DNA of 64,000 nt from an uncultured Pseudomonadota bacterium (GTDB lineage Bacteria > Myxococcota_A > UBA796 > GCA-2862545), in assembly GCA_913061235.1 (NCBI GenBank), contig CAJXTB010000001.1:372001-436000 (forward strand), given 5' to 3'. Under the pieces are notes generated by a model. It saw only the letters and a list, made by a program, of their open reading frames with translations, searched no databases and had not been told where the DNA came from. This document shows, piece after piece, positions 54,753-61,014 of the stretch (positions are counted from its first letter, which is position 1; each line of letters opens with the position of its first letter). The translations under genes and the position numbers were made by a program.

Positions 54753-55928
54753 CTACAGCTCGCCGGCTCGGCTGCCACCACGAGCCGATGTCCAGACTTC
54801 GGTACGACGATTCTGTGCGCGACCCGAGCTGTTCGCATTCGATGCGACAGGATGGTCGTAGCTGTAGCCAGCCGAGTGGATGGTCTTGTCCGGATGGGCG
54901 GCACGCAGACGCGAGGCGACCGCTTCTGCGCGACGTGCGGACAGGCTTCGGTTGTAGGCGTGCGAACCCTTGTTGTCGGTGTGCCCCTCGACCCACATCT
55001 CGGTGATCTCTGGGTGTTCTTCCAGGTCCGCCGACAACTTTGCAACAGCCGCTTCGCCTTCTGGCTTCATGGTGTCTTTGTCAAAGTCAAAGTAGACCGG
55101 TTCCAGCTCCAACTTGTCCGGGACGGGGTCCGGGATGGGGTCGGGCGGATCAGGGGTCTCGCCCTTGCCACCGAACATGCCGTCGTGAGCAATCTCCAGT
55201 GTCTGCACAGCGAGGTCGCTGCTACCGCCATTGAGACTCGGGCCTTCCCAACTGACTGGCCACGGACGAGCGACCTCAAAGCGACGTAGCTCCATGCCGT
55301 CATTGTCCCGCAGGATGATGGTCAGCGTGGTCTCAGTGCGTTCCTTGAACCCGTCATTGATCCAGCGGTCACGCCAGGCATGAAGCTCGTCCTTGGCGCA
55401 CTCACCGTGCTTGAGCACCAAGTTGTCCCACTTGCTGCGACCCACGCGCTTGTGGGTAGAGAAGTTCATGCCACCTTCTTCAATCTCATGGACTTCTGCA
55501 GTGCTCTTCATGCCGGAGCACTCGAGGAAGCTGCCGATCTCAACACCGTTGAGCATGACGCTGAACGAGTAGTTGCCCCACGGGTCTCGCTCGTCTTTGC
55601 CTTCTGGCGCGCCGTAGCCGGTGCCTGCGTTGTACTGACCGGTCGGCTGGTTGACGTCACGCAGCTCAAAGCGGCCTGGGTTGTAGGCTCCCGACGGCTG
55701 CGGCAGGTCACGGTTCTCAAATCCGGAGCCCGGATTGTAAGCCCCCGAAGGCTTAGACACGGAGCCTTCTTGGTACCCGCCTGGATTGTACGCACCCGAC
55801 GCAGAGCCGAGGCTTGCGCTCACCCGGACACCGGCGGCGCTGTACGAGCCCGACGCTTTCGCTACGTAGCGTGGCTGGAATGCGCCAATATTGAAGTTGA
55901 AGTTTCCAGAATTCTTCTTTTTCGGCAC
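54753..55928 (-). CDS. Contractile-tail tube (gp19-type) domain fused to an OmpA domain
   Basis: 391 residues with the chosen GTG (PKKKNSGNF), no signal peptide. Residues 24-108 hold about five units around SGAYNPG (SGSYSAAG, SGAYNPG three times, TGQYNAG) of 17-18 residues. Residues 116-251 match the T4 gp19/tail-tube family: NYSFSVMLNGVEIGSFLECS, EVHEIEEGGMNF, WDNLVLKHGE, PWPVSWEGPSLNGG, AVQTLEIAHDG. A Pro linker leads to an OmpA domain (WVEGHTDNKGSHAYNRSLSA; GRAQNRRTEVW). No sheath, baseplate, spike or AAA gene is near. A possible longer start (55970) would give a Cys-rich hydrophobic N-terminus. Confidence 0.85.
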   Translation of the reverse strand: MPKKKNSGNFNFNIGAFQPRYVAKASGSYSAAGVRVSASLGSASGAYNPGGYQEGSVSKPSGAYNPGSGFENRDLPQPSGAYNPGRFELRDVNQPTGQYNAGTGYGAPEGKDERDPWGNYSFSVMLNGVEIGSFLECSGMKSTAEVHEIEEGGMNFSTHKRVGRSKWDNLVLKHGECAKDELHAWRDRWINDGFKERTETTLTIILRDNDGMELRRFEVARPWPVSWEGPSLNGGSSDLAVQTLEIAHDGMFGGKGETPDPPDPIPDPVPDKLELEPVYFDFDKDTMKPEGEAAVAKLSADLEEHPEITEMWVEGHTDNKGSHAYNRSLSARRAEAVASRLRAAHPDKTIHSAGYSYDHPVASNANSSGRAQNRRTEVWTSARGGSRAGEL

Positions 55929-56040: not shown

Positions 56041-57897
56041 CTAGTCCATCTCAAGGATGCGGAACTCAACACGGCGGTTTCGGGCACGCCCTTCATCGGT
56101 GCTGTTGTCGGCAATAGGCACCTGTTCGCCGAAGCCACGGGACTGCAACCGTCCTTCCTCGACACCCTGCGCAATCAAGAAGGCACGCACCGCAGCAGCA
56201 CGACGGTCGGACAGATCGAGGTTCATCTCGTCTCCGCCTTGTGCATCCGTGTGCCCCTGGATTTGCACGCGACGAACCCGTTCTTCGCTCTGGAGAAGCG
56301 TAGCGATCTCTTCGAGTAGATCGAAAGATTGTCCCTGGATGACGTCGCTGCCTGTCTCAAAGTAAATCTTCTCGGTGACTGTGATGCGGTCGCCTTCAAC
56401 CACAGCACGTGGGTCGCGAAGTACCGCGTCGACCATCAGCTCTTGGTCGGATTCCAAGGTGATATTGCGACGGTAGATACCAACACCTTGAGCCTTGAGG
56501 AAGACCAGGTATCGCCCCGGTGGAAGCTCGTAGCGGTCCAGCCCCTGCGCCCCAAGGCGGCGGGTAGCATCGAGCGGAGCGCCCGGACCAATGATGGACA
56601 GTCCAACACTGTCTACAACACTGCCAGAAGCATCCTTGACGCGAATCGACACGTAGCCAGGAACCACGGCTTCCATGTCCAGCTCGATCGGGTACTCACC
56701 CGACACAACGTTCAGCGTCTCGCTGCCGTAAAAGCCAGGAATCGAGCCTTCAATTTCGTACGTTCCCGCAGCCAGTTCCAGCGGAATGGCCTCTTGCAGG
56801 GTCTCGATCTGTTGGGTCTCACCGCCGCTCGAAACACTCACGTAGACGTCCGACTCCAAGTCGCCGCTGATGGCGGCCGTAATGAGCACGCGGCCACCTG
56901 CGTCCGGGCAGCCGTCGAGGTCTTGGTAGCTATTGAACGTCTCTGGGTCGTCTGGGCACTGGTCGCGCTCGTTGACAATTCCGTCCATGTCACGGTCAGC
57001 ATAGTTGAGTTCAATCTTACCGAATCCAACGCCTGCAAAGAGACGAAACGCCGAAGCGCCAGCGCCAGCATTCACGCCCGTTCCACCGCCAGCAAGGAAG
57101 TGCAGCCCGTTCGATACGCGGTAGCGAGCCGATGCCAGAATCTCGGCTGGCGAGGTTGTGCCCTTGACGTTGGACGCAGCAAGTGACGATGAGATGCGCC
57201 CCTCAAGGGTGATGCCCAGGCCTTGGGTTGGGTGAACACCAATCGCCGCGCCAGCGATGAGCTGGTCTGCACCAATCTGGTTGTTGAGGTTCACAGATGG
57301 GTTGAACCGCGGTCCAGCAGACCCCGTCAGTGTCAGTGCTTCCAGCTCATAGGTCACCGAAACGTCGAAGCCACCCGTGATTCCACCTTGACCCAGGAAG
57401 CGCGTCTCGTCACCCGTTGGCAAGACCAAGTACGGCGCTATACCTAGGCCGAACCCGCCAGCAGCGCGTGGCTTGGTCTGCACGATGGGGCTGTAGGCGC
57501 CCAGGCGAATGTCACCGATACCGGCACCCGTCGCTTCGCCTTCGGAGGAGGCTGCCAAGTACATGGGTACTGCGATGTCTAGGCGGACCCTGTCATGGAC
57601 AGCGACACCGGCGGACAGGTTGAACGCGACCAGGCTGTCGATGATGCGCTCGACCTCCGTGGGTCGACCATCTGCGTAGCTGAGCTCGCGGACCAATGGG
57701 TCGTCAGAAAAATCGACGACACCGGTGGCCCAGAACTCGCCCTGGTGGACTGCACCGGCACGCAGAACTGTCACAGGATCGCGCACGTCACCGTCGTTCG
57801 CGGTCATAGCGAACCCGTGGGCGTCAAAGCCATCCTCTTGGGCGGCAGCAGAACTAGCAAACAACGCAGACAACGCAATGGCGGTCACAAGACGCAT
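56041..57897 (-). CDS. Outer-membrane OmpA-family protein with beta-barrel and TSP3 unit
   Basis: 618 residues. Signal peptide (MRLVTAIALSALFASSAAAQ), a barrel-like region of about 300 residues (GIGDIRLGAYSPIV; GFGLGIAPYLVLPTGDETRF) resembling transporter-type barrels, one TSP3-like unit (DRDMDGIVNERDQCPDDPET), Ig/PEGA-like domains, and an OmpA domain (IQGHTDAQGGDEMNLDLSDR; GRARNRRVEF). I start at the ATG six bases after GGGG. It ends 112 bp before the tail-tube/OmpA gene on the same strand and may be its partner. Similar architecture to the protein at 19-21 kb. Confidence 0.88.
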   Translation of the reverse strand: MRLVTAIALSALFASSAAAQEDGFDAHGFAMTANDGDVRDPVTVLRAGAVHQGEFWATGVVDFSDDPLVRELSYADGRPTEVERIIDSLVAFNLSAGVAVHDRVRLDIAVPMYLAASSEGEATGAGIGDIRLGAYSPIVQTKPRAAGGFGLGIAPYLVLPTGDETRFLGQGGITGGFDVSVTYELEALTLTGSAGPRFNPSVNLNNQIGADQLIAGAAIGVHPTQGLGITLEGRISSSLAASNVKGTTSPAEILASARYRVSNGLHFLAGGGTGVNAGAGASAFRLFAGVGFGKIELNYADRDMDGIVNERDQCPDDPETFNSYQDLDGCPDAGGRVLITAAISGDLESDVYVSVSSGGETQQIETLQEAIPLELAAGTYEIEGSIPGFYGSETLNVVSGEYPIELDMEAVVPGYVSIRVKDASGSVVDSVGLSIIGPGAPLDATRRLGAQGLDRYELPPGRYLVFLKAQGVGIYRRNITLESDQELMVDAVLRDPRAVVEGDRITVTEKIYFETGSDVIQGQSFDLLEEIATLLQSEERVRRVQIQGHTDAQGGDEMNLDLSDRRAAAVRAFLIAQGVEEGRLQSRGFGEQVPIADNSTDEGRARNRRVEFRILEMD

Positions 57898-57987
57898 CGA
57901 TTTCCCCATCTTCTCGGTCCGGTCAGGGTGTCACATGCCAGGGCTCGCCGCAATGAAGACCGTTACAGCAAAAGCCTTGGAGGTCAC

Positions 57988-58740: not shown

Positions 58741-59850
58741 CTAGCGAGGTAGCTGCCGCCCATCCGTCCGGCGGGCCTCGAACTCTGCGTATTCGCCTGG
58801 AGCGATGGGGGCCTGTGTGTGCAACACGACGTTGGCCAGCCAGCCCTCAATCGCACTGCACACCAACTGGCCAGACCGGTTTGTATCGCGCGACGCCCAC
58901 AGCTCTAGAATGTAGCGCCGCCGTTCCTCAAGAGTCGTGAGTGGGCGGGTCCCGTACAGCGGTGTTCCCGTTCGCCACAGCAAGTCCAGCTCATCTGGCA
59001 GGGTGGCTGAATACCGGCGAGTCGCGGTCTCTTGTACGACGCTTCGGTAGTGCGACACGGCGATGGAGCTCGCGTCCAACGCCGCTCTCTGATGGGGCAC
59101 CCGCTTGCGCTTCGACGGAATCGTAAAGCTCAACGCGGCGAGCGAGGGTGCCTGCCATCGCTCGGGATGGTTGGGGTCAAACTCGACGAAGTTCTCGGGG
59201 CAGCGTCCGAGGTCGCGCGTTGTCTCTTCCACGAAGGTCACGTCTGCGGTCAGAGCCTGCAGCACATCACGCCCGCCCACCGACGCCACAAGCCACCGAC
59301 CGTTGGCACGCGCGTGCCCATCCAGTGGCTCCGATGCCCCCAAGATGCTGGTGTACCGACCGTGTAGGAGCGCCACCATCTGGTGTTCTTCCCACAGAAG
59401 GCGCGTATGGCTGCCGTCTTCGTACAGCTTGACCGTCAGCCAGACAGGGCCCTGTGGAACGGGCTCTGGGATCGCTCCGCGAAGCACGAGGTGGTCGCCT
59501 TCATTGGTCACGCCACAGGCGTCCGGGTTGCCGACCTGGAAGGACTCGCGGTCGGTCAGATTAGCGCCGGCGAGCTTTACGGACGGGACTGCGACCGGCT
59601 CGCGAAAGGACAACCGACCATCCTGGGTAAACACAGCCCGCCCAATCCAGCGTTGTGGAGGTGCGAACACCGTATCGGCGCCATCTCGGACGACCGTCCA
59701 GCCGAGCGGTTCAAGGGAGCGCGCAACGGCAGCCCGAGCCTCGCGCAGCGCCTCGTCACCGAACACATAGATGACGGCGTCAATATCCGTATCCGGCTCA
59801 ACGTCCGGCTCCTGACTCCACGCCAGGCCTAACCAGAGCAGCCACATCAC
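58741..59850 (-). CDS. Secreted protein of unknown function, tandem paralogue A
   Basis: 369 residues. Signal peptide MMWLLWLGLAWSQ, then VIYVFGDEALREARAAVARS, a CG...GRW beta region, and a C-terminal half with a YRSVVQETATRRYSATLPD stretch, GTPLYGTRPLTTLEERR and GQLVCSAIEGWL. The following gene encodes the same layout. No known domain recognised. Start is GTG or the ATG right after it; it abuts the stop of its paralogue. Likely the product of gene duplication. Confidence 0.7.
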   Translation of the reverse strand: MMWLLWLGLAWSQEPDVEPDTDIDAVIYVFGDEALREARAAVARSLEPLGWTVVRDGADTVFAPPQRWIGRAVFTQDGRLSFREPVAVPSVKLAGANLTDRESFQVGNPDACGVTNEGDHLVLRGAIPEPVPQGPVWLTVKLYEDGSHTRLLWEEHQMVALLHGRYTSILGASEPLDGHARANGRWLVASVGGRDVLQALTADVTFVEETTRDLGRCPENFVEFDPNHPERWQAPSLAALSFTIPSKRKRVPHQRAALDASSIAVSHYRSVVQETATRRYSATLPDELDLLWRTGTPLYGTRPLTTLEERRRYILELWASRDTNRSGQLVCSAIEGWLANVVLHTQAPIAPGEYAEFEARRTDGRQLPR

Positions 59851-61014
59851 CTACTGGGCACGCGGAAGGCGACGACCATCTGTGCGCATGGACTCGTAGT
59901 GCAGGTACTCGCTCTCTGTGATGGGGTTTTCGGAGTAAACTACGGTCTCACCAAGCCAGCCCTCAATCGACCGACACACGAGCTGGCCGGCGGTGTTCTC
60001 TGCCCGGGTGGCCCAGTGCTCTAGAATCGCCGTTCGGCGGTCGTCCACGTTGCGAATGCGACGTGTGCCATACAGCGGCTTTCCGTCGTTCCAAAGGTCA
60101 TCGAGCTGGTCGGGAAGCTGCCCAACACGCGACTGAGTTGCAATCGTCTGGACCACTTCTCGGTAGTTAGAAACCTCTTCCGAGCTGGCGTCCAACACCT
60201 GGCGAATGTGCGCATAGCGGCGTTCTCGGCTCGGTCCAAGGCCCGTAGTGACGCTAGCGACAGCCCCAACGGCCCCCTGACCATTGGGTCCGGTTGCCTG
60301 TTGGGCGAACGGGTCGTACTCGTCTTCCGAGACCGAACATGGACCGGTCGAGGTAGAGCTCCGTCGCTCAAACACCACATTCTGCATGGGTTCTCGCGCA
60401 CGTTCAATCTCACCCGACACCGTTAGGCCCATCCAGTAGTTCCCGCGCTGCCAGTCGACGTTGTCCAATGAGGAGATGACGCCAATAGGTGTCGCGAAGC
60501 GCCCTTCCGCTAACGAGATGGTCTGGGTTTCCGACCAAATCGCCAAGTCACTGTCTTGACGGGCGTAAATCGAGAAGGTCAGGTCGACAGGGCCGACGTA
60601 GTCACCGCCATCGAGCAAGTGCAGCTCATTTCGGACGATGACTTCTTTCGTCTGGTTGCCGGATCCGCAGGCATCACTCGGCAATCTGCGCGCGCCCGAA
60701 CCACCCGGTTGACCCGATGCTCCGACGTCTGCGCCACGAATCGGAATGATGGGCGTGGAGAACTCGAATCGGCCGTCTGGCAGGAAGGTGGCCTTGCCAA
60801 TCCACGCTTGCGGCGGCTTGAACACGATGGTGTCGCCGCGACGGTCCGCGGCCCATCCCAAGTCCTGGAATGATGCGGTGATCTCGGCACGAGCCTCCTC
60901 CAACTGCTCGTCACCGTAGACAATGATGACGACGTCAGCGTCATCATCCGCAGGTGGGTCCAGAGCGACGGGGGCCTCTTGGGCCAGAGCGAGAGCGAGC
61001 AGCCAAGTGAACAC
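59851..61014 (-). CDS. Secreted protein of unknown function, tandem paralogue B
   Basis: 387 residues, paralogue of the gene next to it. Signal peptide (FTWLLALALAQEA). Shared segments: VIIVYGDEQLEEARAEITAS with VIYVFGDEALREARAAVARS; PPQAWIGKATF with PPQRWIGRAVF; KPLYGTRRIRNVDDRR with TPLYGTRPLTTLEERR; GQLVCRSIEGWL with GQLVCSAIEGWL. The GTG start has GGAG eight bases before it. Function unknown; the first 30 mature residues are Asp-rich. Confidence 0.7.
   Translation of the reverse strand: MFTWLLALALAQEAPVALDPPADDDADVVIIVYGDEQLEEARAEITASFQDLGWAADRRGDTIVFKPPQAWIGKATFLPDGRFEFSTPIIPIRGADVGASGQPGGSGARRLPSDACGSGNQTKEVIVRNELHLLDGGDYVGPVDLTFSIYARQDSDLAIWSETQTISLAEGRFATPIGVISSLDNVDWQRGNYWMGLTVSGEIERAREPMQNVVFERRSSTSTGPCSVSEDEYDPFAQQATGPNGQGAVGAVASVTTGLGPSRERRYAHIRQVLDASSEEVSNYREVVQTIATQSRVGQLPDQLDDLWNDGKPLYGTRRIRNVDDRRTAILEHWATRAENTAGQLVCRSIEGWLGETVVYSENPITESEYLHYESMRTDGRRLPRAQ

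Follow-up and report, generated by a model that had tools for sequence, protein, structure and literature searches.

An orphan gp19–OmpA fusion protein as a candidate peptidoglycan-binding paralogue of an eCIS tube adaptor

Introduction

What could a phage-type tail-tube domain be doing in a gene that stands apart from any contractile-tail cluster and ends in a domain of the kind that binds the cell wall? This question is raised by a gene in the 64-kb stretch of DNA analysed here, referred to as the window (G000:C1:372001-436000), which comes from a 7.18-Mb genome in 72 contigs. The original prediction paired a gp19 domain with an OmpA domain in this one gene and suggested a wall-tied tube subunit that might form tubes or dock them to the envelope, or else be a cell-attached inner tube of an unlinked system. 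Here, we have followed the gene through domain and structure comparison, through a search of 379 genomes of its phylum (21 of its own family and 358 others) and through the other contractile-tail genes of its host. The results suggest that the fusion is a paralogue of the tube adaptor of an eCIS encoded elsewhere on the same contig.

Results

Domain architecture of the fusion protein

The open reading frame is uninterrupted, with zero internal stops over its 391 codons. Its features are collected in Table 1. Both predicted domains scored far above their Pfam cutoffs: Phage_T4_gp19 (PF06841) matched at profile positions 2-133 of 134 (E = 1.2e-29, 103.3 bits against a cutoff of 28.2) and OmpA (PF00691) at positions 1-98 of 98 (E = 3.9e-15, 56.4 bits against 27.2). 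TIGR02241 was also matched by the gp19 domain (80.3 bits, cutoff 62.4), so that its place in the gp19/CIS tube superfamily rests on curated cutoffs passed over the entire profile. Sequence matches in the PDB were consistent with both halves. AlphaFold2 modelled the OmpA fold with high confidence (most of that domain having a pLDDT of about 85-95). The model of the other half is gp19-like, at moderate to low confidence, and the first 118 residues are predicted to be disordered (pLDDT of the tail about 26-36).

Table 1. Positions, within the 64-kb window, of the fusion gene, its parts and the adjoining gene
Feature	Position	Strand	Remarks and basis
gp19–OmpA fusion gene	54753..55928	-	391 aa, GTG start; kept in seven further family genomes
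N-terminal repetitive tail, residues 1-112	55593..55928	-	Repeat core SGAYNPG / TGQYNAG; disorder predicted
gp19 / CIS tube-adaptor-type domain, residues 119-251	55176..55574	-	PF06841, TIGR02241, Foldseek (low-confidence model)
Pro/Asp-rich linker, residues 252-276	55101..55175	-	Sequence; Pro-rich in remaining family members too
OmpA/Pal/TagL-type domain, putatively peptidoglycan-binding, residues 279-374	54807..55094	-	PF00691, Foldseek/VIA matches, TagL-equivalent residues
C-terminal tail RGGSRAGEL	54756..54782	-	R-x-G-x-R-x-G-E-[LI] in 5/8 family members (alignment)
Outer-membrane-barrel-type protein that also contains an OmpA domain	56041..57909	-	112 bp upstream of the fusion; neighbourhood common to G019

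Within the phylum, the fusion was found in a single family and is under selection

Full-length gp19–OmpA proteins were found in eight of the 21 family genomes (G000, which is the source of the window, G002, G005, G009, G011, G014, G018 and G020), whereas the search of 358 further genomes of the phylum gave none. The pair thus occurs in seven relatives, all of the same family. Both domains passed their Pfam cutoffs in the seven members that were scanned, and the eighth, from G020, was identified by alignment. The architecture is conserved, and the gene is an orphan in all eight genomes. A single origin is allowed, though not established, by the trees (AU p = 0.40 for ten orphans and 0.27 for the eight fusions).

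That such a lone and patchily distributed gene, with no tail genes alongside, might be a functionless relic of a prophage or of a decayed eCIS is very improbable in our view. The frame is open in eight genomes, and both domains have a pN/pS below 1. The value of 0.25 for the gp19 domain (G011 against G020) reflects purifying selection, and the OmpA part is less constrained (about 0.53-0.63; 0.63 in the same comparison). Part of the neighbourhood is also common to the window and several relatives, and no phage or plasmid record spans both domains. A pseudogene, one of the outcomes that would have undone the original prediction, is rejected by the open frames and the pN/pS values.

A known phage architecture was considered and set aside. 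Cellulophaga phage phi17:2 gp171 was matched by both halves in Foldseek, but it carries OmpA alone according to Pfam. Likewise, the match to the phage family phrog_7897 covers the OmpA half only. A scan of genome contigs with the single protein, which sampled taxa outside the phylum only lightly, returned OmpA relatives and no two-domain protein, and scans of viral contigs returned one eCIS-like contig. Neither a gp19–OmpA protein nor an OmpA domain in an eCIS was found in the part of the literature covered.

The gene lies away from a complete eCIS on the same contig

As originally stated, no sheath, baseplate, spike or ATPase gene accompanies the fusion: the window holds no contractile-tail gene that we could find, and neither another gp19 gene nor a sheath gene. 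Those neighbours that were scanned are not tail genes (ATE, FemAB, GSDH, a thioesterase and the OmpA barrel). Some of them stay beside the fusion in relatives, namely FemAB and an rRNA-methyltransferase-like gene in G011, ATE and a prepilin peptidase gene in G005, and GSDH in G018. In G019, an orphan gp19 gene lies among four of the window neighbours and lacks an OmpA domain, and therefore the OmpA domain was either lost there or gained elsewhere. The window also encodes two adjacent, mutually similar, secreted-looking proteins (58741-59850 and 59851-61014, minus strand) that matched no Pfam family; the first of them has a relative close to the G019 orphan.

A complete eCIS is encoded on the same contig at C1 about 126-149 kb, some 280 kb upstream of the fusion. 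The suggestion that the fusion might belong to an unlinked system is therefore well supported: a full eCIS is present, and in the genome search the fusion had its N-terminal tail in common with the gp19 protein of that eCIS alone. The cluster comprises a Pvc16_N cap, two sheaths (593 and 395 aa), the gp19 protein (262 aa), a CIS_tube+LysM protein, a GPD/VgrG-like hub, gp25, Baseplate_J, an eCIS_core-domain protein and an AAA ATPase. The gp19 gene (C1:137301-138089) is in the CIS5 position, two genes ahead of the LysM protein. Between these two lies a gene for an Arg/Ala/Ser-rich protein of 1430 aa (L045:7972-12264), which had no match in Pfam or NCBIfam; genes of similar size occupy its place in G009 and G002.

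A matching eCIS sheath was found in six of the eight fusion-bearing genomes, the five besides G000 being at 76-79% identity; the two without it, G014 and G018, are 92% and 81% complete assemblies. Since an eCIS is present in almost every genome of the family, the phylogenetic association of the fusion with eCIS is uninformative. Many of these genomes lack the fusion, and the fusion gene is therefore dispensable.

The genome has six gp19 genes, the fusion included. One of them, a CIS1-like tube gene on contig C4 (L049:9554-10000), groups with CIS1-like proteins whose genes adjoin that of the sheath in G011, G020 and G005. In these three genomes, the CIS1-like gene forms part of the eCIS cluster; in G000, G002, G009 and G018, it is solitary. 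Tube-type genes that have parted from the cluster are thus a recurrent feature of this lineage.

Several other tail-type genes were observed. Two near-identical orphan gp19 genes of another type, each encoding 148 aa, are located on contigs C2 and C11 (L050:9615-10061 and L051:9677-10123), an orphan sheath-like gene (L048:9201-10772 on C17; 523 aa, PF04984, E = 7.4e-9) has no adjoining tail genes, and a second contractile system on C22 (L047) has a 638-aa sheath, a 210-aa gp19 protein and baseplate-type genes. In the relative G007, a 601-aa protein (L059:1127-2932) joins gp19 to a GPD baseplate hub, has a repeat tail of SGAFHVHG type and adjoins the CIS11 baseplate gene; it is a second, different gp19 fusion within the family.

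The gp19 domain appears nearest to a tube adaptor

In the tree, the gp19 domain of the fusion groups with the CIS5 proteins of the clusters, apart from CIS1. The top Foldseek matches of this half were Pvc5, the PlPVC1 baseplate chain 5A, Afp5 and a Streptomyces CIS baseplate chain (9gtp_a), the model having a pLDDT of 51 and the scores lying close together. The NCBIfam CIS5 and CIS1 scores of the fusion were also close to each other, and the CIS5 equivalog cutoff was reached neither by the fusion nor by the host's own CIS5. By position, the fusion is outside the eCIS cluster and hence outside the CIS5 slot between the sheath and CIS7/CIS8.

These comparisons speak against the idea of a cell-attached inner tube. 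The main inner tube here appears to be the product of another gene, the CIS1-like one, and the fusion's gp19 domain appears nearest to the tube adaptor of the CIS5/Cis1b type, so that a ring at the tube end is more likely than the tube itself. In the Streptomyces CIS, Cis1b is a tube initiator and, together with Cis7, joins the tube, which has sixfold symmetry, to the threefold spike (PMC12237407). If a ring of the Cis1b kind bore extra domains, it would therefore lie near the baseplate.

An N-terminal tail is shared with the eCIS CIS5 protein

The fusion is 51% identical to the gp19 protein of the host eCIS, and both carry a tail of SGAYNPG type. In the tail of the fusion, which spans ~112 residues, this core stands at residues 44, 61 and 79 and TGQYNAG at residue 96. 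When the 7.2-Mb genome was searched with the tail, the sole other match was in the gp19 protein of the eCIS cluster, at 59% identity (E = 8e-26). Over 90 codons, the two tails of G000 are 51% identical, which taken alone is weaker evidence than the corresponding pair in G009. The G009 tails differ wholly from those of G000, being built of PGRG..SNHQ repeats, yet they too are common to the fusion and to the eCIS CIS5 of that genome. Besides these two proteins, the search with the G009 tail gave a single match elsewhere, at E = 0.11.

The G009 pair also indicates how the likeness has been maintained. Over the first 75 codons, the two tails are 92% identical in protein, with differences at 41.8 of 62.3 synonymous sites and 8.2 of 162.7 nonsynonymous sites (dS about 1.7, dN 0.05). 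Recent copying of the tail between the two genes is ruled out by the near saturation of the synonymous sites. The gp19 domains of the two proteins are 56% identical, and a tree with these domains as sisters was rejected (AU p = 0.008), so that a recent copy of the whole gene was not the source of the shared tail either. Since the tail has been conserved in spite of near-saturated synonymous change, a shared binding partner is the better explanation, and the fusion and CIS5 both seem to be held to one common partner. We take the shared tail as the strongest evidence that the orphan may work with the eCIS. The tail is absent from six of the eight fusions, and in G002 the CIS5 protein is tailed and the fusion is not. 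Repetitive Gly/Arg-rich N-terminal tails, of GRGKGR..QPT type, were also seen in CIS5-like gp19 proteins across the order (L030-L044 and L078-L086; families f2, f4 and f6).

A shared tail could also serve another end. A free gp19 paralogue might bind the partner of CIS5 through the common tail and thereby limit or time eCIS assembly, acting as a regulator or decoy in which the OmpA domain localises the protein or is incidental. The orphan location and sporadic presence of the gene would agree with this, the exact sharing of the tail fits a competition for one partner, and the G019 orphan indicates that the gp19 part alone can persist. Still, we regard this role as unlikely. The OmpA residues and the architecture have been kept in eight divergent genomes, which would be needless for a simple decoy, and an OmpA domain that is not exported cannot reach the cell's own wall.

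The OmpA domain has the wall-binding residues of TagL

The C-terminal half belongs to the OmpA/Pal/MotB class by its fold as well as by its Pfam score. Structural matches in Foldseek and VIA were OprF, the complex of A. baumannii OmpA (AbOmpA) with peptide, YfiB, TagL and TssL. VIA gave Z scores of 13-14 to YfiB, TagL, Pal and AbOmpA, and for TagL (7bba) a Z of 13.8 with an rmsd of 2.5 over 109 residues. The residues lining the DAP site of TagL are Asp486, Asn494, Leu497 and Arg501, and TagL mutants at Asn494, Leu497, Ser498, Arg501 or Ala502 are impaired in binding to the wall (PMC8253398). Sequence comparison showed that the equivalent residues are all present in the window protein, as D318, N326, L329, S330, R333 and A334. 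The five positions mutated in TagL are conserved in all eight family members, as are the Asn, Leu and Arg of the DAP site. The Asp that contacts DAP (Asp318) is retained in the window protein alone, being replaced by Cys in six members and by Ser in one. Judged by these residues, the window protein is likely to bind peptidoglycan, and binding by the other seven members is uncertain.

No signal peptide or transmembrane stretch was evident when the sequence of the fusion was inspected, and the gp19 domain starts at residue 5-7 in five of the eight homologues. The lack of a signal peptide indicates that the protein would be made in the cytoplasm. Together with the early start of gp19, it implies that the protein should have access to peptidoglycan in just three settings: once the cell has lysed, at a target cell, or when the particle is stuck in the envelope. 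The description of the protein as wall-tied is thus upheld in part. Its plausibility comes from the fold of the OmpA domain and from the wall-binding residues reported for TagL; against it are the lack of an evident signal peptide and the absence of the DAP-contacting Asp from seven of eight members, and the binding is putative.

The same features bear on whether the protein belongs to the eCIS at all. It could be an envelope protein with no relation to the eCIS, in which the gp19 domain merely oligomerises an OmpA wall anchor; the OmpA fold with its wall-binding residues, the adjoining barrel–OmpA gene and the two fusion-bearing genomes without a matching eCIS sheath are all in keeping with this. 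We think there is only a slim chance that it is so, given that no signal peptide was evident by inspection, that five of eight homologues leave hardly any room ahead of gp19, and that a tail specific to the eCIS is shared in G000 and G009.

The extra domain could also be a cargo borne by the tube. The fusion would then be an eCIS analogue of the specialised (evolved) Hcp, with the OmpA domain as a payload delivered into or onto the target envelope and not as an anchor. Specialised Hcps likewise consist of a ring domain with a C-terminal extension (PMC8262886), and an unlinked, sporadic gene is what is often seen with accessory payloads. This role nevertheless appears rather improbable: OmpA domains are binding modules without known toxicity, the gp19 part is closer to the baseplate adaptor than to an expelled tube, albeit in a weak model, and the tail shared with CIS5 suggests structural docking.

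Discussion

We propose that the fusion is an unlinked CIS5/Cis1b-type paralogue that provides the eCIS with a tube-adaptor ring, accessory or alternative, and carries a peptidoglycan-binding OmpA domain, a proposal to which we give an even chance of being right. The fusion protein would be made in the cytoplasm, the site of eCIS particle assembly. The gp19 domain could then form or join a ring at one end of the inner tube, next to CIS5 or, in a subset of the particles, instead of it, and the disordered N-terminal tail may bind the same partner as the tail of CIS5. The OmpA domain would hang off the ring by the Pro-rich linker and could grip peptidoglycan once the particle meets a wall. That wall may belong to a target cell or to the lysed producer; in the latter case, the particle would be kept back, much as ghost cells keep their thylakoid-anchored CIS.

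A further step would be that this dedicated, separately encoded adaptor ring ending in OmpA ties the eCIS of the family to peptidoglycan and makes it a wall-anchored CIS. We advance this step tentatively and hold it to be rather less probable than its opposite. If it is true, the mode of attachment would be unlike that of free eCIS, of the membrane-anchored T6SS and of thylakoid-anchored CIS. Attachment to the envelope decides whether a contractile machine is a free particle or a cell-bound weapon, and a peptidoglycan-binding adaptor paralogue, kept across one family and with a tail matching that of the machine's own adaptor in two genomes, would amount to a new envelope link. The shared tail further predicts one partner protein that binds both tails. 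As eCIS parts can be scattered over the chromosome, the CIS1-like tube gene being an orphan in four of these genomes, surveys based on clusters may miss components.

Comparison with known systems shows where the fusion is familiar and where it departs. Afp5, Pvc5 (CIS5) and the Streptomyces Cis1b have the same gp19 domain (PF06841/TIGR02241) and were its best fold matches, in a weak model. In contrast to these adaptors, the fusion is encoded outside the eCIS cluster, has an OmpA domain and carries a lineage-specific repetitive tail that is common to the host's own CIS5. The T6SS offers a precedent for a contractile machine tied to the wall, its membrane complex being held there by OmpA-type domains (PMC8253398). 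TagL and TssL-long share the OmpA/Pal/MotB fold and the TagL wall-binding residues with the fusion, but they are part of the membrane complex, whereas the OmpA domain of the fusion sits on a tube-type protein with no membrane segment evident by inspection. The specialised Hcp of the T6SS similarly joins a tube-ring domain to a C-terminal extra domain (PMC8262886); the extensions of Hcp are toxins, while OmpA was the sole family that Pfam found in the C-terminal part of the fusion, with no toxin domain.

Further parallels come from CIS that assemble in the cytoplasm and have been re-engineered for association with the envelope, namely the thylakoid-anchored CIS and the CisA-dependent Streptomyces CIS (PMC8894136, PMC12237407). 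In the former, known from Anabaena, anchoring depends on extensions of the fibres and the baseplate, and the particles remain in ghost cells (PMC8894136). These systems attach through fibre or baseplate extensions or through a membrane adaptor; the fusion would instead be a peptidoglycan-binding paralogue of the tube adaptor. In the host cluster itself, the CIS7-type LysM protein (PF19266 with LysM) is likewise a tube-end protein with a module of the peptidoglycan-binding type, although it is of another tube family, has another module and lies inside the cluster, unlike the orphan fusion.
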